From assembly GCF_014873145.1 (NCBI RefSeq), contig NZ_JADBEK010000001.1, positions 5,890,001-5,954,000 on the forward strand: a DNA stretch of 64,000 bases, read 5' to 3'. The position numbers and the translations under genes were made by a program. Positions 3,628-12,371 of the stretch are shown one piece after another. This DNA comes from Nonomuraea angiospora. GTDB lineage: Bacteria; Actinomycetota; Actinomycetes; Streptosporangiales; Streptosporangiaceae. The notes under the pieces are model-generated. The model did not search any database. It was not told the DNA's origin and saw only the letters and a program-made list of their open reading frames with translations. The stretch's first letter is position 1; each line of letters starts with the position of its first letter.

Positions 3628-5061
3628 ATGCGCCGGCACGACACGCTGTTCATCGGGGGCGAATGGGTGGCCCCCGCGGGCACCGCGACGATAGACGTCG
3701 TCTCCCCGCACACCGAGGAGGTGGTCGGCCAGGTGCCCGACGGCACCACCGCGGACATGGACCGCGCGGTCGCGGCCGCCAGGGAGGCGTTCGACCACGG
3801 GCCGTGGCCGCGGATGACGTTCGCCGAGCGGGCCGAGGTCATCGGCAGGCTGGCCGCGATCTACAACGAGCGGCAGGGCGAGATGGCCCAGCTCATCACG
3901 GAGGAGATGGGCTCGCCGATCACGTTCTCGAACCTCGCCCAGGCGCCCCAGCCGCTGGGCATGCTGCAGTACTACGCCGAGCTCGGCAAGACGTTCGAGC
4001 AGGAGGAGCAGCGGCCGGGCCTGTTCGGCCCGATCACCGTGCGCAGGGAGCCCGTGGGCGTGGTGGCGGCCGTGGTGCCGTGGAACGTGCCCCAGTTCGT
4101 CACGATGACCAAGGTCGCGCCCGCGCTGCTGGCCGGCTGCGCCATCGTGCTCAAGCCGGCCCCCGAGACGCCGCTGGACGCGTACCTGCTGGCCGAGTGG
4201 GCGATCGAGGCGGGCATCCCGGCGGGCGTGCTCAACATCGTGGCCGCGGGCCGCGAGGTCGGCGAGCACCTGATCTCCCACCCCGGCGTGGACAAGGTGG
4301 CCTTCACCGGCTCGACGGCGGCCGGCCGGCGGATCGCCGCCATCTGCGGCGAGCAGCTCAAGCGGGTCAGCCTGGAGCTGGGCGGCAAGTCGGCCGCGAT
4401 CGTCCTGGACGACGCCGACCTGGCCGCCAGCATGGGTTTCCTGTCCATCGCCTCGCTCATGAACAACGGCCAGGCCTGCGTGGCGCAGACCCGCATCCTG
4501 GCCTCGCGCAACCGCTACGACGAGGTCGTCGACGCCGTCGCGAACATGGTCAACTCCCAGCCCGTCGGCGACCCCGCCGACCCAGCCACGGGCATCGGCC
4601 CGCTGGTGGCCAAGCGGCAGCAGGACCGGGTGGAGGGCTACATCAGGATCGGCATGGACGAGGGCGCCAAGGTCGTCGTCGGCGGTCTCGACCGGCCCTA
4701 CGACCGCGGCTGGTACGTCTCCCCCACCGTCTTCGCGGGCGTCACCAACGAGATGCGCATCGCCCGCGAGGAGATCTTCGGCCCGGTCCTGGCCGTGATC
4801 CCGTACGAGGACGAGGCGGACGCCGTACGCATCGCCAACGACAGCGACTACGGCCTGGCCGGCTCGGTGTGGACGGCCGACGCCGAGCACGGCATGGACG
4901 TGGCCCGCCAGGTCCGCACCGGCACGTACGGCGTCAACTGCTTCATGCTGGAGACCAACGCGCCCTTCGGCGGCTACAAGGCCAGCGGCATCGGCCGCGA
5001 GCTGGGCCCCGAGGGCCTGAACGGCTACCTGGAGTACAAGACGATCGCGCGGCTCGGCTAG
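3628..5061 (+). CDS. NAD(P)-dependent aldehyde dehydrogenase
   Basis: A 477-aa aldehyde dehydrogenase of the ALDH superfamily, oxidising an aldehyde to its acid. The whole catalytic apparatus is visible: N153 in PWNVP, K176 in the KPAPE cofactor motif, general base E250 in LELGGKS, and nucleophile C284 in GQAC. Length is typical of the family. The ATG at 3628 follows an AGGAGG site 7-8 nt upstream. It has its own terminator and no pathway genes beside it, so the physiological substrate cannot be read from the sequence. Confidence 0.93.
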   Translation: MRRHDTLFIGGEWVAPAGTATIDVVSPHTEEVVGQVPDGTTADMDRAVAAAREAFDHGPWPRMTFAERAEVIGRLAAIYNERQGEMAQLITEEMGSPITFSNLAQAPQPLGMLQYYAELGKTFEQEEQRPGLFGPITVRREPVGVVAAVVPWNVPQFVTMTKVAPALLAGCAIVLKPAPETPLDAYLLAEWAIEAGIPAGVLNIVAAGREVGEHLISHPGVDKVAFTGSTAAGRRIAAICGEQLKRVSLELGGKSAAIVLDDADLAASMGFLSIASLMNNGQACVAQTRILASRNRYDEVVDAVANMVNSQPVGDPADPATGIGPLVAKRQQDRVEGYIRIGMDEGAKVVVGGLDRPYDRGWYVSPTVFAGVTNEMRIAREEIFGPVLAVIPYEDEADAVRIANDSDYGLAGSVWTADAEHGMDVARQVRTGTYGVNCFMLETNAPFGGYKASGIGRELGPEGLNGYLEYKTIARLG

Positions 5062-5259: not shown

Positions 5260-6057
5260 TCACGAAAGGTTCGAAGAGATCCACTTGCCGATTCTGCGAA
5301 TGAGTTCGGGGGGCGCGGCGGTCTCCGCGTGGCCGTACCCGGGCTCGATCCAGAGCTCCTTGGGCTCGCGCGCGCCGGCGTAGAGTTGGTGCGCGTGGTC
5401 GAGCGGGAAGAACGTGTCCTGGTCGCCGTGCACGACCAGCAGCGGGGTCGGCGAGATGAGCGCGGCGGCCTCGTGCGGCGGCATCGGGATCGGGTCCCAC
5501 TCGCCGCGGGCGATCCTCGTCCGCTTGACCACCCTCGCCGCCAGGCGCCCGAACGGCCGCTCGATGGCCCAGTGAACCTGCCGCATCGGCTTGGTGCCGC
5601 GGTAGTACCAGCGGGCCGGGGCGCTCACCGCCACCACGGCGTCCACGCCGCCGAGCAGGCCCGCGTGCCGTACGGCCACCGCCGCCCCCATGGAGAAGCC
5701 CACGACCGCGAGCTTGGAGTAGCCGGCCACGCGGGCGTGCCGGACGGCGGCGTCCAGGTCGAGGATCTCCAGGTCGCCCACCGTGGTCTCACCGCCGGAG
5801 CGCCCGTGGCCGCGGAAGTCGAAGGCGATCACCCCGCCGTACCCGCTGAGCACGTGCACGATGCGCCGCGCCGTACGGTCCCGCCACGACCCGGTGAACC
5901 CGTGCGCCATCACGATCCCTGTGTTCATGGCCTCCACTCCGTGGAGGCGGGCTCGGTCGCTGGGGAGCCGTCGCCGCGAGAAGGGGGTGTGGGCGGCGTT
6001 GAGGCGTATCCCGTCTTCGGTCCTGAGCATGACGGGGAAATGAGGCGCGTACGGCAT
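5260..6057 (-). CDS. Alpha/beta hydrolase
   Basis: A 265-aa serine hydrolase of the alpha/beta fold, probably cytoplasmic (no signal peptide). The oxyanion region HGFTG lies at 52-56, the nucleophile is S122 in GFSMG, the acid is probably D214 in HGDQD, and the histidine H243 in YGHAE. The overall pattern is that of small-ester or acyl hydrolases. It starts 10 nt after the stop of the upstream LuxR-type regulator on the same strand, so it is almost surely the last gene of the five-gene block 12265 to 5260. Its position beside two truncated adenylate-forming domains hints at acyl or ester chemistry, but no substrate can be assigned. Confidence 0.85.
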   Translation of the reverse strand: MPYAPHFPVMLRTEDGIRLNAAHTPFSRRRLPSDRARLHGVEAMNTGIVMAHGFTGSWRDRTARRIVHVLSGYGGVIAFDFRGHGRSGGETTVGDLEILDLDAAVRHARVAGYSKLAVVGFSMGAAVAVRHAGLLGGVDAVVAVSAPARWYYRGTKPMRQVHWAIERPFGRLAARVVKRTRIARGEWDPIPMPPHEAAALISPTPLLVVHGDQDTFFPLDHAHQLYAGAREPKELWIEPGYGHAETAAPPELIRRIGKWISSNLS

Positions 6058-6067
6058 GGAGACGAGC

Positions 6068-8494
6068 TTATGTTCGCTCCGCGTCCACCCCGTGTTCGGC
6101 CGCCCAGACCGCGATCCGCGCCCGCGAGTCGAAGCCCAGCTTCTCCATGATGATGGCGACGTGCCTGGCCACGGTGGCCGGGCTGATCACCAGCGCCTCG
6201 GCGACGCCGCGGTTGCTCAGGCCCCGGGCCAGCATGGCGGCGATCTCCCGCTCCCGCGCGGTCAGCCCGTCGTGCGCGAGCACCGGGGGCGGCGCGGCCG
6301 GCCCGGGATCGCCGTCGAGCACGAACCCGGCCACCACCTCCGGCGGCATCCTCCTCCCCCTGGCCCACAGCAGCTCCACCCGGTCCGCCCCGAGCCGCGC
6401 GCGGACGAGCGCCAGCAGCTCCTCGATCCGGCCGGACGCGCCGACCTGCCCGATGGACTCGCGCAGCGCGGTGGCGGCGGCGGCCGCGAGCACCGCGCCC
6501 TCCAGGTCGTCCCGCGCGTGCGCCAGCGCGGAGACGGCCATGAGCGCCCGGACGATCCCCCTGCGCTGGCCCGTCTGCCTGCTCAACGCCAGGCTGTCGG
6601 CGATGTGCCCCCGGGCCGCGGCGTAGTCGCGCAGCCCGGCCGCCACCCGGCCGATCTGGGCCTGGCAGCGGGCCAGCTCGATCCGGTTGTCCAGGTCCTC
6701 CAGCAGCGGCAGCGCGGCCGCGTGGTGCGACCTGGCGGTCTCCAGGTCGCCCGCGGCCTCGGCCACCGCGCCCAGGTGGGTCAGCGCCCTGGCCAGCGAC
6801 CAGTGGTGCCCGGCCTGCCCGGCCAGCGCGAGCGCCTCCTCGCCGTAGCGCCGGGCCTCGTCCGTCCGGCCGTGGAAGAGCGCCAGGTTGAGCTGGGCGA
6901 TCCTGGCCGTGACCAGGTTGAACAGGTCGTCGTGGGCGCCGGCCGCCGCCTCCAGCTCCGCGGCGTAGCGTCGCGCCCGCTCGCTCTGCCCGGTGCGGAA
7001 GAGCACGGTCAGCGCCACGCCGTACGTGATGCCCAGCCAGTGCGTGTACGGGTGCCGCTTCTGCTCCTCCAGCCCCCGCACGACCAGCTCTTCCGCCCGG
7101 CCCAGCTCGTCGGCGAGCTCCAGCCCGTACGCCAGCCCGCTCCTGGCCACCGCGACCAGGTCGGCGGGGGCCCCGGACAGGTCGAGCGCGAGCAGCCGCT
7201 CGTGCCAGCCGACGCTCTCGCCCAGGTCGCCGCGGACGGCCATGACGGCCATGGCGGCGCGGGCCAGGCGCAGCCCGAGCACGGGGGCCCGCGACTCCAC
7301 CGCCCAGTCGACCGCGTTCCTGGAGTCGTCGAGGAGGGCGCGGCCCCTGGTCAGATGGGCGAACCGCTCCTGCCACGGCATCCTGCGGTCGAACGAGCCG
7401 GCCTCGTGGCAGTGCTCCATCTCCTCGCAGACCGCCTTCAGGTGCCTGTCGCGCAGGTGCGCGGCCTCGCCGGCCTCCTCCAGGCGCTCTGCGGCGTACT
7501 GCTTGATGGTCTCCAGCAGGCGGTAGCGGCCGGGGGCGTGGTGGCGCACCAGCGACTTGCCGGCCAGGCCGGTGAGCAGGCCGGGCAGCTCGGCCCTGCG
7601 CAGGATGCCGCCGTCGGCGCAGACCTGCTCGGCCAGGCCGAGGTCGAACGGCCCGGCGAACACCGAGAGCCGGCGCAGCAGCACCCGCTCCTTGGGCGGG
7701 AGGAGCTCGTGGCTCCACTCGACGATGGCCAGGAGCGTGCGCTGCCTGGCGGGAGCCGTACGATCGCCGGCGGCGAGCAGGCCGAGGCGCTCGCCGCCGC
7801 GACCGGCCAGGCGGTCGGCGATGTGGCCGGGGCTCAGCCGGCTCGTACGGGCCGCCGCCAGCTCCAGCGCGAGCGGCAGGCCGTCGAGCACGTGGCACAG
7901 GCGTACGACGTCGTCCATGACGCGCGCCACCCCGCTCGCGCCCGCAGCGAGCGCCCGCTCGACGAACAGCAGTACGGACTCGGCCTCGGGATGCCGCTCG
8001 TCGGGCAGCTCCAGCGGCGGCACCCGCCAGACCAGCTCGCCCGGGACGCGCAGCGGCTCCCGGCTGGTGAGCAGGAACCGGAGCTCGGGGCACTCGGAGC
8101 TCAGGCCGGCCACCAGCTCGGCGCAGCGCTCGACCAGGTGCTCGCAGTTGTCCAGCACGATCAGCGCCCTGGCCGTGCGCAGGCGGGTGCGCAGGCCGTC
8201 CAGCAGCCGCCCGGGCACCTCGTCGCGCACGCCGAGCACCTCGGCCAGCTCGTTGACGATCAGCTCGGGGTTGCCGATGCGGGCCAGCTCGACCAGCCAC
8301 ACACCGTCGGGGAAGCGGCTCAGCTGCTGCGCGGCGACGCGCAGGGCGAGCCGGGTCTTGCCGATGCCGCCCACGCCGCTGAGCGTGACCACGCGTTGTT
8401 CGTGGACGAGCGCCGCCAGCTCGGCCACGTCGCGGACACGCCCGACGAAGCGGTTGGGCTCGGCGGGGAGATTGTGCGGAACTTGCGTGATCAT
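6068..8494 (-). CDS. NB-ARC/LAL-type LuxR transcriptional regulator (copy 1)
   Basis: An 808-aa STAND-type regulator. A P-loop ATPase domain begins near residue 15, with Walker A GVGGIGKT at about 40-47, and a hydrophobic strand ending in IVLDNCEH serving as Walker B. A long helical TPR-like middle follows. The last ~60 residues are a LuxR DNA-binding domain (LTAREREIAAMLARGLSNRG, then SPATVARH). The ATG at 8494 was chosen because it places HNLPAEPNRFVGR at the same distance from the start as in the paralogue at 9040-11469. A TTG at 8536 and a GTG at 8524 are alternatives, and the ribosome site is weak. It is paralogous to the next regulator along its length. It probably activates transcription on binding an unknown inducer. 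Confidence 0.9.
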   Translation of the reverse strand: MITQVPHNLPAEPNRFVGRVRDVAELAALVHEQRVVTLSGVGGIGKTRLALRVAAQQLSRFPDGVWLVELARIGNPELIVNELAEVLGVRDEVPGRLLDGLRTRLRTARALIVLDNCEHLVERCAELVAGLSSECPELRFLLTSREPLRVPGELVWRVPPLELPDERHPEAESVLLFVERALAAGASGVARVMDDVVRLCHVLDGLPLALELAAARTSRLSPGHIADRLAGRGGERLGLLAAGDRTAPARQRTLLAIVEWSHELLPPKERVLLRRLSVFAGPFDLGLAEQVCADGGILRRAELPGLLTGLAGKSLVRHHAPGRYRLLETIKQYAAERLEEAGEAAHLRDRHLKAVCEEMEHCHEAGSFDRRMPWQERFAHLTRGRALLDDSRNAVDWAVESRAPVLGLRLARAAMAVMAVRGDLGESVGWHERLLALDLSGAPADLVAVARSGLAYGLELADELGRAEELVVRGLEEQKRHPYTHWLGITYGVALTVLFRTGQSERARRYAAELEAAAGAHDDLFNLVTARIAQLNLALFHGRTDEARRYGEEALALAGQAGHHWSLARALTHLGAVAEAAGDLETARSHHAAALPLLEDLDNRIELARCQAQIGRVAAGLRDYAAARGHIADSLALSRQTGQRRGIVRALMAVSALAHARDDLEGAVLAAAAATALRESIGQVGASGRIEELLALVRARLGADRVELLWARGRRMPPEVVAGFVLDGDPGPAAPPPVLAHDGLTAREREIAAMLARGLSNRGVAEALVISPATVARHVAIIMEKLGFDSRARIAVWAAEHGVDAERT

Positions 8495-8548
8495 GTGGGG
8501 CCCAGGTGGTCGCGGGGGGATCACATCCGATGCCAAGTCTCCCCTGGT

Positions 8549-8962
8549 TCAGGGGCTGATGTGGTCACTTTCCGTGCAGAGTTCGCGACTGGTTGGATAT
8601 GAATGCGGCACGCCGAGGTCGGCGACGCTCATCACGATCCGTACGCGTGACTCGTCCGCGGCGTCGAGCGCCCTCGGCACCTCGGAGATCATCACGCGGG
8701 CGCCGCTCGCGTGGATCTGGTCCCTGAAGGCGCCCGCGTCGAGGTCGCACGGCAACGGCCAGGCGACGCCGCCCGCGGCGATCACCGTGTCGGCAGCCAC
8801 CAGCAGGTCGGCTCCCGCGGGCAGGCAGATGAGCACGGCGTCACCCGCGCGCACACCTCGGCGCCGCAGCTGGACGGCCGCGACTGCAGACCTCTCGTCC
8901 AGCTGCTCCTCGGTGAGCCTCAGGCCGGTGCCCGAGTCCACCACGACGATGCGCTCATCCAT
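8549..8962 (-). CDS. Truncated adenylate-forming-domain-like protein A
   Basis: A 137-aa protein that resembles only the first ~130 residues of acyl-CoA synthetases and NRPS A-domains (ANL superfamily). The visible part is LTEEQLDERSAVAAVQLRRR followed by GVRAGDAVLICLPAG and an AAGGVAWPL strand. It lacks the ATP-binding P-loop (TSGTTGxPKG) and everything after it, so it should not form adenylates. The ATG at 8962 (MDERIVV) was chosen over a GTG at 8971; neither has a good ribosome site. It ends 54 nt before the start of LuxR copy 1, the same layout as protein B with LuxR copy 2. It could be a decayed enzyme or a ligand-binding partner of the regulator. Confidence 0.65.
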   Translation of the reverse strand: MDERIVVVDSGTGLRLTEEQLDERSAVAAVQLRRRGVRAGDAVLICLPAGADLLVAADTVIAAGGVAWPLPCDLDAGAFRDQIHASGARVMISEVPRALDAADESRVRIVMSVADLGVPHSYPTSRELCTESDHISP

Positions 8963-9039
8963 GGGGCCCACGGTAGGGAGGGCCCCTCATGCATACATGG
9001 GGCGGAATATGCAGATCCCTATGCAGAACCGCGCCACGC

Positions 9040-11469
9040 TCACCGGGCGACGGTGGGGTGCTCCGCGGCCCAGACCGCGATCTGGGCCCGCGACGTGTAG
9101 CCCAGCTTCTCCATGATGTTGGCGATGTGCCGGGCGACCGTGGCGGGGCTGATCACCAGCTCCGTCGCGATGGCCCGGTTGGACAGCCCCCGGGTGAGCA
9201 GGCCCGCGACCTCCTGCTCGCGGGCCGTCAGCAGCGAGTGTCTGACCGGCTTGGTCGCCACCGGCGCCTTCTGCGCGATGCGCTCGCCCTCCAGCACGTG
9301 CCGGGCGGCGTCCTCGGGGCTCATGGCCCGGCCCCGCGACCAGAGCGAGGTGGTGCGGCCGTCGCCCAGCTTGGTGCGGGCCCGGCCGAGCAGCTCCTCG
9401 ATCCTGAGCGTGGGCGACTGCTGCCCGATCGACTCGCGCAGCCGGACCGCCGCGCCCGCGGCCAGCACGGCCCCCTCCAGGTCGCCCTCGCACTCCGCCA
9501 GCACCGACAGCCCGACCAGGCACAGGGCCACCCCGTGGCGTTGCCCGGTCTCCCGGCCCAGGGCGAGGCTGGCGGCCAGCCACTCCCGCGCGGCGGCGAA
9601 CTCGTGCAGCATCGCCGTCACCCTGCCGACCCTGGCCAGGGCGCGCGACAGGTCGAGGTCGCTGCCCAGCTCGCGCAGCCACGGGACGACCATCTCGTAG
9701 TGGGCCCTGGCGGTCACCAGGTCGCCGCGGAACTCGGCCACCGCGCCGAGCTGGGTGGCGGTCCTGGCCATGATCCACCGGTGGCCGTGCTCGCGGGCCC
9801 GCGCGAGCGCCTCCTCGCCGTGCCGCTGCGCCTCGCGCAGCCGCCCGCGGCTCAGCGCCACGGCCGACAGCCCGGCCAGCCCCGCCGCCTGGTTCCACGC
9901 GTCTCCCGAGCGCAGGGCCAGGGCCAGGCCCTCCTCCGCGTGGTGCACCGCGTCCTCGGGCCTGCCCATGCGCAGCAGCACGACGACGATGAGGCTGTGG
10001 ATGACGCAGCGCGCGAACGTGTCGCCGGTGGTGAGCCCGGCCAGGCTCTCCTCGGCCAGCGCCAGGGAGCGGCTCAGCTCGTCCCTGGCCTCCAGGCCGT
10101 AGGCGAGGTATCCCCTGGCCTGCGCGATCTGCTCGCCGGGCACCTGGGTCAGGTCGAGCGACAGCAACCGCTCGATCCAGGTGCCGATCTCCGTCAGGTT
10201 TCCGCACAGCGGCAGCAGCCCGCTGCTGGCGGCGCAGAGGCGCAGGCCCAGCGGCACGTTGCCGGACTCCACGGACCAGTCGAGCGCCATCCGCTGGTCG
10301 TCGACGAGGCTCTTGCTCATGGTCAGCGCCTCCAGGCGGCGGGCCCACGGCACGCCCGGCTCGACCATCTCGGTGGTGAAGTGGCGCTCCTGCAGCTCGC
10401 AGACCACGTGCAGGTGGCGCTCGCGCAGGACCTCGCGCTCGCCGGCCTTCTGCAGGCACCCCACCGCGTAGCGCTTGATGGTCTCCAGCAGCCAGTAGCG
10501 CCTGCGGCTCTCGTCGCACAGCACGAGTGACTTGTCGACCAGCCCGCCGAGCAGATCGACGATCTCCGCCTCCGAGATGGGCCGCTCGGCGCAGACCTGC
10601 TCGGCCAGGTCGAGGTCGAAGTCCCCGGCGAACACCGACAGCCTGCGCAGCAGCACCTGCTCCTTCGCCGAGAGCAGGTCGTAGCTCCACTCGACGGCCG
10701 CGAGCAGCGTGCGCTGCCTGATGGGGGCGGTGCGGCCGCCGGTGGTGAGCAGCGAGAACCGGTCGTCGATGCGGTCGGCGATCTGCCCGGGGCTGAGCAG
10801 GCTCGTGCGGGCCGCGGCCAGCTCCAGCGCCAGCGGCAGCCCGTCGAGCGCCCGGCACAGCCGCACCACGTCGGGCAGGCTGCCGGCGCCCAGCCTGGTG
10901 CCGGCGGCCGCCGCCCGGTCCAGGAAGAGCTGCACGGACTCCGCCTCGGGACCGCCCTCCCCGGGGGTGCTCTCGTCGGGGAGGTCGAGCGGCGGGACCC
11001 GCCAGATCAGCTCGCCGGCGATGCGCAGCGGCTCCCTGCTGGTGGCCAGGACGCTCAGGCGCGGGCAGGCCGCGATCAGCGCCGCGGCGACCTCGGCGCA
11101 CCTGTCGATGAGATGCTCGCAGTTGTCGAGCAGCAGCAGGCACCGCAGGTCGCGCAGCCGGTCGAGGACGGTGCCGAACACCGGGCGGCCGCCCTCCTCC
11201 CGCACGCCGAGCACCCGGCCGATCTCCTGGTCGACCAGCTCGGGGTGGCGCAGCCTGGCCACCTCGACCAGCCAGACGCCGTCGGGGTAGGCGGGCACCA
11301 GCCCGGCCGCGACCCGCAGGGCCAGGCGGGTCTTGCCGATGCCGCCCACCCCGCACAACGTGACCACGCGCGTCTCGCGGAACAGCCCACGCAATTCGTC
11401 GAGATCGCGCTCGCGACCAACGAACCGGTTGGGCTCCGCCGGAAGATTGTGCCTGGGGGGCTCTGGCAT
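9040..11469 (-). CDS. NB-ARC/LAL-type LuxR transcriptional regulator (copy 2)
   Basis: An 809-aa paralogue of the regulator at 6068-8494, one residue different in length from the chosen starts. Walker A GVGGIGKT and the Walker B strand ending LLLLDNCEH sit at equivalent positions. The middle is helical and TPR-like, and the C-terminal LuxR helix-turn-helix reads LTAREQEVAGLLTRGLSNRA and then SPATVARHIANIMEKLGY. The ATG at 11469 has AGGGTG 6 nt upstream; a TTG at 11532 would overlap the preceding gene. Both regulators share HNLPAEPNRFVGR near the start. It likely controls this block or linked genes in response to an intracellular ligand, but the ligand is unknown. Confidence 0.9.
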   Translation of the reverse strand: MPEPPRHNLPAEPNRFVGRERDLDELRGLFRETRVVTLCGVGGIGKTRLALRVAAGLVPAYPDGVWLVEVARLRHPELVDQEIGRVLGVREEGGRPVFGTVLDRLRDLRCLLLLDNCEHLIDRCAEVAAALIAACPRLSVLATSREPLRIAGELIWRVPPLDLPDESTPGEGGPEAESVQLFLDRAAAAGTRLGAGSLPDVVRLCRALDGLPLALELAAARTSLLSPGQIADRIDDRFSLLTTGGRTAPIRQRTLLAAVEWSYDLLSAKEQVLLRRLSVFAGDFDLDLAEQVCAERPISEAEIVDLLGGLVDKSLVLCDESRRRYWLLETIKRYAVGCLQKAGEREVLRERHLHVVCELQERHFTTEMVEPGVPWARRLEALTMSKSLVDDQRMALDWSVESGNVPLGLRLCAASSGLLPLCGNLTEIGTWIERLLSLDLTQVPGEQIAQARGYLAYGLEARDELSRSLALAEESLAGLTTGDTFARCVIHSLIVVVLLRMGRPEDAVHHAEEGLALALRSGDAWNQAAGLAGLSAVALSRGRLREAQRHGEEALARAREHGHRWIMARTATQLGAVAEFRGDLVTARAHYEMVVPWLRELGSDLDLSRALARVGRVTAMLHEFAAAREWLAASLALGRETGQRHGVALCLVGLSVLAECEGDLEGAVLAAGAAVRLRESIGQQSPTLRIEELLGRARTKLGDGRTTSLWSRGRAMSPEDAARHVLEGERIAQKAPVATKPVRHSLLTAREQEVAGLLTRGLSNRAIATELVISPATVARHIANIMEKLGYTSRAQIAVWAAEHPTVAR

Positions 11470-11521
11470 GTGGTCACCCTGCGTCGCTGAAGGATCACAC
11501 TCTCCCACAGTGTCGCACTTT

Positions 11522-12265
11522 TCACAGCCCAAGCGAGCTCACGATCGCCCTTTCGTCGACGACACGCAGGACGGGGTCGCCGAGCAGCCGTCTGGCCAGG
11601 TCATACGGCGCGACGACCATGGTGGCGCGGCGCTCCTGGGCCAGCACGCGGCAGCCCACCAGGCTCGGCTCGTGGGCGATGACGACGTGCGCCCCCACCG
11701 TCATCGCCAGATCGATCACCCGCAGACCCCGGAACGGCTCGCTCACCGCGCTGATCACCACGTCCTCCTTGCCGATCACCAGCCGGCCGGCCAGCCTGCG
11801 CAGGTCGGCCGCCAGCGTGTGGTGATCGAACACCCGCCCGCCGTCGACGGTGAGCGCGGGCCCGGCCAGCGGGCCGTACTCGAGGGCGCGGTCGCCGATG
11901 AGCGCGGTGAACGGCTTGGTCCCCGGCGCGGACTGGAAGGAGAAGACCCGGTCGACCTTCACCGCGGCGGGGTCGTAGCGGCCGTGGGTGATCATGAAGC
12001 GCGCCGTCCCCGAGGCCGCGAGCACCGCCACCCCGCCCGCCCAGGCCACGGAGTGGACCGCCACGGGCAACGACGTGCCGAGCGGGACGTCGACGATCAC
12101 CTCGTCGCCGAAACGCAGGCCCTGGCGCTGCAGACCCGCCGCGGCGCGGGTGACCCGCCTGGCGAACGCGGCGTAGGACAGCACCTCGCCGGTCCTGACT
12201 TCGCTGACCGCGGGTTGGTCCCCCTGGGTCGGCGCCGCGGCCATAACCAGCTCTGTCCAGGTCAT
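11522..12265 (-). CDS. Truncated adenylate-forming-domain-like protein B
   Basis: A 247-aa protein similar to the N-terminal half of ANL enzymes. It has the early SYAAFARRVTRAAAGLQRQG and GLRFGDEVIVDVP region at 30-61. Residues 148-228 resemble the segment that normally follows the P-loop (HHTLAADLRRLAG, DVVISAV, GAHVVIAHEP, ERRATMVVAPYDLARRLL). The TSGTTGxPKG ATP-binding loop is missing and the protein stops before the A5-A8 motifs, so adenylation is unlikely. It is the first gene of the minus-strand block. A TAGATT -10 box at 12272-12277 lies 6 nt before the ATG, which suggests a leaderless mRNA. Confidence 0.7.
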   Translation of the reverse strand: MTWTELVMAAAPTQGDQPAVSEVRTGEVLSYAAFARRVTRAAAGLQRQGLRFGDEVIVDVPLGTSLPVAVHSVAWAGGVAVLAASGTARFMITHGRYDPAAVKVDRVFSFQSAPGTKPFTALIGDRALEYGPLAGPALTVDGGRVFDHHTLAADLRRLAGRLVIGKEDVVISAVSEPFRGLRVIDLAMTVGAHVVIAHEPSLVGCRVLAQERRATMVVAPYDLARRLLGDPVLRVVDERAIVSSLGL

Positions 12266-12302
12266 GCCGATAATCTAGGGACGGCGGCCCGGCTTGCCAT
12301 GC

Positions 12303-12314
12303 GCACAATTGTGC
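12303..12314. promoter_or_regulatory. Candidate operator GCACAATTGTGC
   Basis: A perfect 12-bp palindrome lies in the divergent gap between protein B and typA. Its centre is 43.5 bp upstream of the protein B ATG, which is also the probable transcription start if the gene is leaderless. That is where activators often bind to overlap the -35 region. Control by one of the LuxR proteins is an inference. Confidence 0.4.
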
Positions 12315-12371
12315 AACCGGCTATGTACGTGGACCGCACGCCGCTCGCCGCTGAGGACCCCTCACCTCGCG

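Follow-up and report, generated by a model that had tools for sequence, protein, structure and literature searches.

Two giant LuxR-type regulators in this locus are each preceded by a protein that resembles only the first half of an acyl-CoA synthetase, which raises the question of what such halves of the ANL superfamily do beside regulatory genes. The window, the whole stretch of 64,000 nucleotides that was analysed, lies at 5.89-5.95 Mb of the single-contig 13.09-Mb genome of Nonomuraea angiospora. The answer that we favour, and consider rather probable, is a dedicated regulator-pseudoenzyme circuit, in which a STAND activator is dedicated to an ANL pseudoenzyme and is probably subject to feedback from it.

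Organization of the locus

The features are listed below in window coordinates.

3628..5061, plus strand: convergent neighbour, presumably an aldehyde dehydrogenase from its sequence; context
5260..6057, minus strand: alpha/beta hydrolase (Pfam), with GFSMG as nucleophile motif and HGDQD and GHAE as sites of the candidate Asp and His
6068..8494, minus strand: LAL2, 808-aa paralogue of LAL1 (54% identity)
8549..8962, minus strand: AMPb, 137-aa protein with the first ANL subdomain only and a variable tail
8970..8975, minus strand: AMPb -10 element TACCGT, beginning 13 nt before the AMPb ATG
9008..9025, minus strand: promoter box of AMPb, TGCATAGGGATCTGCATA, 63 nt ahead of its start codon and directly past the LAL1 stop
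9040..11469, minus strand: LAL1, 809-aa LuxR-type STAND regulator with NB-ARC-like ATPase, TPR and GerE HTH (Pfam)
11522..12265, minus strand: AMPa, N-terminal ANL half of 247 aa that lacks the C-terminal domain and has its ATP loop (A3) deleted
12272..12277, minus strand: AMPa -10 element TAGATT, beginning 12 nt before the ATG; leaderless mRNA predicted
12310..12327, minus strand: promoter box of AMPa, TACATAGCCGGTTGCACA, 62 nt ahead of its start codon
12454..14304, plus strand: divergent neighbour, which we take to be typA; locus marker in relatives, context outside the system

AMPa, LAL1, AMPb, LAL2 and the hydrolase gene follow one another with intergenic gaps of 52, 77, 54 and 10 nt, and the typA start lies 188 nt from AMPa on the opposite strand. 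The sequence-only reading had described gaps of 52 and 54 nt and regulators of 809 and 808 aa with a common sequence at equal distance from the start; the coordinates confirm these values, and HNLPAEPNRFVGR begins at residue 7 in both LAL1 and LAL2. Over 56 residues, AMPa and AMPb share 43% identity, and the AMPa of Nonomuraea jabiensis is 97% identical to that of the window.

A third pair of a LAL and an ANL-half is located 6.0-9.6 kb ahead of window position 1, with LAL3 at 6.0-8.5 kb and then AMPc, an ANL-half of 257 aa, at 8.8-9.6 kb. The gene after AMPc encodes the solute-binding protein of an ABC transporter, which NCBIfam sugar-binding models matched below their cut-offs. AMPc is closely trailed by a gene for a carbohydrate-binding protein in several Nonomuraea and in genus g43, and in one genome (G003, locus L059) two LAL3-type genes, at 6821-9208 and 9259-11601, stand in tandem before AMPc. 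Between LAL3 and AMPc there is one further feature:

G000:C1:5881257-5881381 (locus L214, upstream of the window), minus strand: structured RNA candidate of ~125 nt with a terminator-like hairpin at its 3' end

Covariation supports this candidate: in an alignment of 12 sequences, three of them poorly aligned in the first stem, 12 pairs have substitutions in both partners, where shuffles give 5.5 +/- 1.6 and slid controls no more than 5; its further pair types are not above shuffles, of which 104 of 500 reach the same number. The RNA model finds one copy each in 26 of 150 family genomes from 10 genera (six of the 26 had supplied rows of the model), with a LAL upstream in 24 of these matches and AMPc downstream in 23. 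No Rfam match was returned at E <= 5 for loci L001, L002, which includes the candidate, and L005.

Truncated ANL proteins and their full-length relatives

The Pfam model PF00501 matches AMPa over positions 4-77 of 384 only (E 2e-9) and AMPb over positions 10-130 only (E 1.9e-14). Both proteins have the ANL N-terminal fold in their predicted structures; on comparison with ANL N-domains, AMPa is confidently predicted to adopt the fold of the initial portion of an ANL enzyme, and AMPb aligns to the first subdomain alone. The A3 ATP loop is deleted outright in AMPa, in AMPc and in three halves of genus g47, AMPb ends ahead of it, and the C-terminal domain with the A10 lysine is, by length, missing from AMPa and AMPb. 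That the half-domains lack the ATP-binding loop and should be non-catalytic, as proposed from the sequence, is thereby borne out. Database names for AMPa relatives include AMP-binding protein and fatty-acid-CoA ligase.

As judged from substitution rates, the ANL-halves are under purifying selection. In six chosen pairs dN/dS is 0.19-0.31 for AMPa, and in five of the six it is 0.18-0.46 for AMPb; AMPb reaches 1.19 in the closest pair, which holds few changes. Over all pairs the medians are 0.42 for AMPa and 0.41 for AMPb, similar to those of the LALs, with a maximum of 0.95 for AMPa. The reading frames are intact at all loci read (16 of 16 for AMPa and 15 of 15 for AMPb), and the stops flagged by a profile search in two further genomes are natural stop codons. 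The length is also narrowly distributed: among proteins of 136-432 aa from the best 8000 candidates scored, 83 of 98 AMPa relatives have 235-261 aa.

Gene order was compared in 35 named loci, from 33 Nonomuraea, [Actinomadura] parvosata and Thermoactinospora rubra, with the labels LAL1 and LAL2 assigned by best tblastn hit. The genes typA, AMPa and hydrolase were each found in all 35, and the adjacency of AMPa and typA is more than chance. LAL1 and AMPb are present in 33, LAL1 of parvosata being in two pieces. For LAL2, 16 loci have a complete gene, three a partial or split one and 16 none, so AMPb does not depend on LAL2. The arrangement of half-domain then regulator, twice, which had been proposed as a duplicated module, is the true gene order in this strain, but AMPb and LAL2 had to be rejected as a conserved unit. 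Loci of T. rubra and N. longispora retain only AMPa and the hydrolase, LALs and AMPb being missing, and four genomes of genus g15 (L130-L133) have typA, an ANL-half and the hydrolase with no adjacent LAL.

Some single genomes show further changes. Both LAL1 and LAL2 are broken into pieces in G015 (L046), LAL2 is partial in G018 (L054), and LAL1 of G014 (L055) carries ~1 kb of additional sequence ahead of the HTH; loss or damage looks commoner in the regulators than in the ANL-halves. A 973-aa open frame in G014 was considered as a half-LAL fusion and was not borne out, the AMPa frame from the start codon being 246 aa. In two genomes of the genus group (G006 and G283, loci L136 and L137), the AMPb product has shrunk to ~91-94 aa behind an intact promoter box, and AMPa was not detected in the stretches fetched.

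In genus g77, the promoter box leads into a 497-aa full-length ANL protein adjoining a LAL. A search of 298 family genomes with this protein as query found, at E <= 1e-75, 20 matches from five genera, g47 alone contributing 15; at the same threshold, no full-length homologue was found in the genome of the window. A LAL lies in the 1.5-kb upstream flank of 18 of the 20, and a second ANL-related frame follows downstream in 17, with the box between the two in 16 of these, so that the order in other genera is LAL, full-length ANL, second ANL. The promoter of the full-length gene itself is often off the box consensus. Another full-length protein is encoded in g70. Over 21 full-length proteins, the catalytic lysine is replaced by Arg in 19 and by Gln in one and is unreadable in one, that is, lost in 20 of 20 readable proteins, and the ATP loop is near-intact in only two (L189 and L201). 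An aldehyde dehydrogenase with 71% identity to that of the window occurs near the LAL-ANL array in 5 of 8 stretches from other genera.

Arranged by size, the ANL proteins form a series of about 500-540, 301-348, 247-257, 137 and 94 aa. Full-length ANL proteins adjoin LALs elsewhere, and several have that aldehyde dehydrogenase gene nearby, so truncation is the most likely origin of the halves; the sequences point to a full-length ancestor that was most likely already without catalysis. The possibility raised earlier, that the halves are remnants of full-length synthetases, holds in that full-length ANL proteins do stand beside LALs in other genera, but not as regards activity, because the catalytic lysine has been lost there too. 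A remnant of an active synthetase was not found at the locus, the full-length counterparts being dead by motif as well.

Regulators and promoter box

LAL1 and LAL2 combine an ATPase with Walker motifs, a TPR region and a C-terminal HTH, the layout of LAL (STAND) LuxR-type regulators. In LAL1, the Walker A motif GVGGIGKT is at residue 40 and LLLLDN at residue 111, and the corresponding motifs of the two proteins are GVGGIGKT and LLLLDN/LIVLDN. NB-ARC scores are 19.8 bits for LAL1, below the Pfam cut-off of 23.5, and 28.8 bits for LAL2, above it; TPR_12 matches with E 3.1e-15 and 8.7e-8, and the GerE HTH (PF00196) with E 3.5e-17 and 6.9e-15, respectively. The HTH of LAL1 reads VISPATVARHIANI. 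Neither protein is MalT itself, since the MalT equivalog NCBIfam PRK04841 scores 44.2 bits in LAL1 and 19.0 bits in LAL2 against a cut-off of 537.

The phylogenetic tree unites 27 LALs from ANL loci in a single clade (98/98) and separates them from 12 further LALs encoded in the genome of the window, which are the usable rows from 17 own-genome loci tried. LAL1 and LAL2 fall in separate clades that split near the base of Nonomuraea. The recognition helix of the ANL-linked LALs is VISPATVARHV.NI or a close variant (VISSAT, VISTAT, VISQAT, FISPAT), and it starts with FITPAT and FITQST in L142 and L145. Four other own-genome LALs that match the helix motif have VIAQRT(A/V)E(G/C)H(I/V)E. A helix of their own fits a separate DNA target for the ANL-linked LALs.

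Reading the upstream sequences side by side revealed a box of two hexamers, TRCAYA-N6-TRCAYA, 61-64 nt before the start codon. A TANNNT -10 element begins 12-13 nt ahead of the start codon in the promoters read. The accessible text of PMC3898074 places TANNNT of leaderless actinobacterial promoters ~7-12 bp before a transcript start that coincides with the initiation codon; the spacing found here suits transcripts starting at the ATG, which suggests that the mRNAs of the ANL-halves are leaderless.

In the 13.09-Mb genome, the hexamer pair occurs at four places, as does a reversed control pattern; three of the four are the promoters of AMPa, AMPb and AMPc, and around the fourth no ANL or LAL frame was present within the 3 kb read. 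AMPa is preceded by the box at a distance of 62-63 nt in 34 of the 35 named loci, T. rubra being the exception, and AMPb at 62-64 nt in all 33 that have this gene; a search of either strand found no further box elsewhere in these loci. Outside Nonomuraea, 28 distinct boxes (29 rows, one locus twice) are all 61-64 nt before an ATG or GTG, with TANNNT at -12/-13. The loci without LALs differ among themselves. N. longispora has kept AMPa and its box though LAL1 and AMPb are gone, T. rubra has neither box nor single hexamer upstream of AMPa, and the g15 loci have lost the pair and kept the downstream hexamer TGCATA in place, 50-51 nt before the ATG. The loss of LALs and the loss of the box are therefore only partly coupled. 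In L130-L133 of g15, TGCATA lies inside an inverted repeat, ATGGTCAG...CTGACCAT (CTGGCCAT in two), ~40-70 nt before the ANL-half, which is perhaps the site of another regulator.

Genome searches with the promoter pattern gave 12 hits for the TACA start, in 12 of 150 family genomes from 7 genera (control 2), and 36 hits for the TGCA start, in 31 of 298 family genomes, all in the genus group of the window (control 1). The motif was defined on Nonomuraea, so hits in this genus are not independent; six hits of the TACA search came from other genera, G080 among them already known beforehand. When 42 of the 48 hits were fetched as loci, an ANL-derived frame began at most 700 nt downstream in 41 and a LAL was present within 1.5 kb in 40. 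The single miss for ANL is L165, where the box opens a 15-aa frame; L173 has AMPc and no LAL in the 1.5-kb flank. Among the pattern hits, these counts show a near one-to-one link of the box to ANL-derived genes beside LALs. Whether homologues of the half-domains stand regularly beside LALs had been the check proposed from the sequence, and they do; a common promoter box also ties the half-domains to the regulators.

The pattern is insensitive: G062, G089 and G177 carry the box and were missed in the TACA search because their box-to--10 gap of 33 nt is one base above that allowed. In 296 genomes of the class (28 of the family and 268 others), the TACA pattern, which boxes with a 33-nt gap escape, gave 3 hits (control 1), namely two Nonomuraea and G484, a 1.5-Mb genome and the only match among the 268 of other families. 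Three of the six other-genus hits (G078, G039 and G101) have a frame of 94-171 aa first and the ANL-related frame 372-536 nt downstream. The short frame between box and ANL-related frame in L142, L144 and L145 has a conserved stretch, RRGEAPA...GSPRGGGVT, with a tandem duplicate in L145, and may act as RNA, not protein.

The proposed circuit and its alternatives

In the circuit that we propose, a MalT-like LAL would bind TRCAYA-N6-TRCAYA directly upstream of the -35 region of leaderless promoters and activate them. The first gene behind such a promoter would encode a dead ANL protein, in Nonomuraea an N-terminal half or less. As AMPa is followed in order by LAL1, this regulator would be autoregulated together with AMPa, and AMPb would head a second unit with LAL2 and the hydrolase. 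From the company that the box keeps, we infer that a LAL is the factor binding it. By analogy with MalY, Aes and MalK, which act on MalT in this way, the ANL-derived protein most likely contacts the LAL, tunes its switching and so feeds back.

A wider form of the proposal we put forward tentatively, at slightly under even chances: a STAND clade whose near-sole target and return controller is an ANL pseudoenzyme, the partner having eroded stepwise from a full-length dead ligase to one subdomain of 94-137 aa, with a structured leader RNA, without an Rfam match, at one locus. If the erosion ran so far, it is the first ANL subdomain that must contain the control interface.

The alternative to be taken most seriously, which we nevertheless regard as unlikely, is that the ANL-halves are mere output genes of the LALs, with a job of their own as scaffold or in pairing with a full-length ANL protein, and no feedback. 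It would agree with the second ANL-related protein directly downstream in 17 of 20 full-length loci, a possible pairing, with the survival of AMPa without an adjacent LAL in T. rubra and g15, and with the place of AMPc closely before a carbohydrate-binding protein gene in several Nonomuraea and g43. The genome of the window, however, has no full-length homologue at E <= 1e-75 and thus no obvious partner, AMPb retains one subdomain only, and AMPa stands 52 nt before its regulator gene in an apparent operon. The suggestion of the sequence-only reading, in which the half-domains act as sensors or carriers of acyl compounds on behalf of the regulator and the hydrolase is a further component, is quite improbable. 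The predicted ANL fold would suit such a role, as would a hydrolase present in 35 of 35 named loci and with catalytic motifs in the window copy, but the ATP loop is deleted in AMPa, AMPc and the three g47 halves. The first ANL subdomain alone does not make up an acyl/adenylate site, and AMPb aligns to nothing more; with most of the domain that forms the acyl/ATP site missing, an acyl carrier is unlikely in its case. Nor is the hydrolase supported as a third part, because it is kept also in the two named loci where the LALs are lost and may be a separate gene.

Binding of the box by a different regulator, the LAL genes adjoining for other reasons, seems to us very improbable. The box persists in N. 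longispora with LAL1 gone from the locus, and g15 retains one hexamer with no LAL there, as such a regulator would allow; against it, the LAL clade, its recognition helix and the box travel together across genera. Gene decay, by which the halves are remnants of a synthetase on its way out, has been largely refuted and is barely credible. Full-length homologues beside LALs in other genera, with that aldehyde dehydrogenase close by in 5 of 8 stretches, and the graded series from about 500-540 down to 94 aa are what decay would leave, yet the frames are intact (AMPa 16/16, AMPb 15/15, the flagged stops being natural), dN/dS is mostly well below 1, 83 of those 98 AMPa relatives keep to 235-261 aa, the AMPa fold is predicted with confidence and the promoter box is near-invariant. 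Simple decay, the alternative named at the outset, was rejected on the frames and dN/dS.

The regulator-pseudoenzyme circuit has its nearest model in the MalT system. Like E. coli MalT, the LALs have a STAND ATPase, a TPR region and a C-terminal LuxR-type HTH; the proposed partners are of enzyme descent, as are MalY and Aes, with an alpha/beta hydrolase in the gene set, and a carbohydrate ABC transporter gene is the neighbour of the LAL3/AMPc copy. The folds of MalY and Aes differ from the ANL fold. Unlike the MalT inhibitors, the proposed partner is a catalytically dead and truncated member of the ANL family, whose gene shares the locus of the LAL and lies behind a dedicated box. According to the accessible text of PMC10427625, MalT is sequestered by MalY, Aes and MalK, of which MalY and Aes are enzymes, and MalY blocks MalT oligomerization. 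Domain layout and size class are those of other actinobacterial LALs, as far as the available text describes them (SCO0877/SCO7173, PMC3282765; SCO6993, PMC9628970). The 12 other LALs compared from the genome of the window differ from the ANL-linked ones, which have a separate clade, their own recognition helix and a very small predicted target set. In contrast to members of the ANL superfamily such as acyl-CoA synthetases, 4-coumarate:CoA ligase and NRPS adenylation domains, the partners have no ATP loop, C-terminal domain or catalytic lysine, and AMPb is a single subdomain. A literature search by titles and abstract openings, with most subscription papers outside its reach, found no description of pairs of a LAL and an ANL-half. 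The pieces are of known kinds; as far as we found, neither their pairing nor the box nor the partner's stepwise erosion has been described.

How STAND transcription factors are held and triggered is known in detail in few cases, such as MalT. A natural series of partner sizes down to one subdomain, together with few predicted DNA sites per genome, makes control of a STAND activator by its partner directly testable. If the proposal is true, these loci would clearly exemplify the conversion of an enzyme family into regulatory components, and annotators could drop the names AMP-binding protein and fatty-acid-CoA ligase for such genes.
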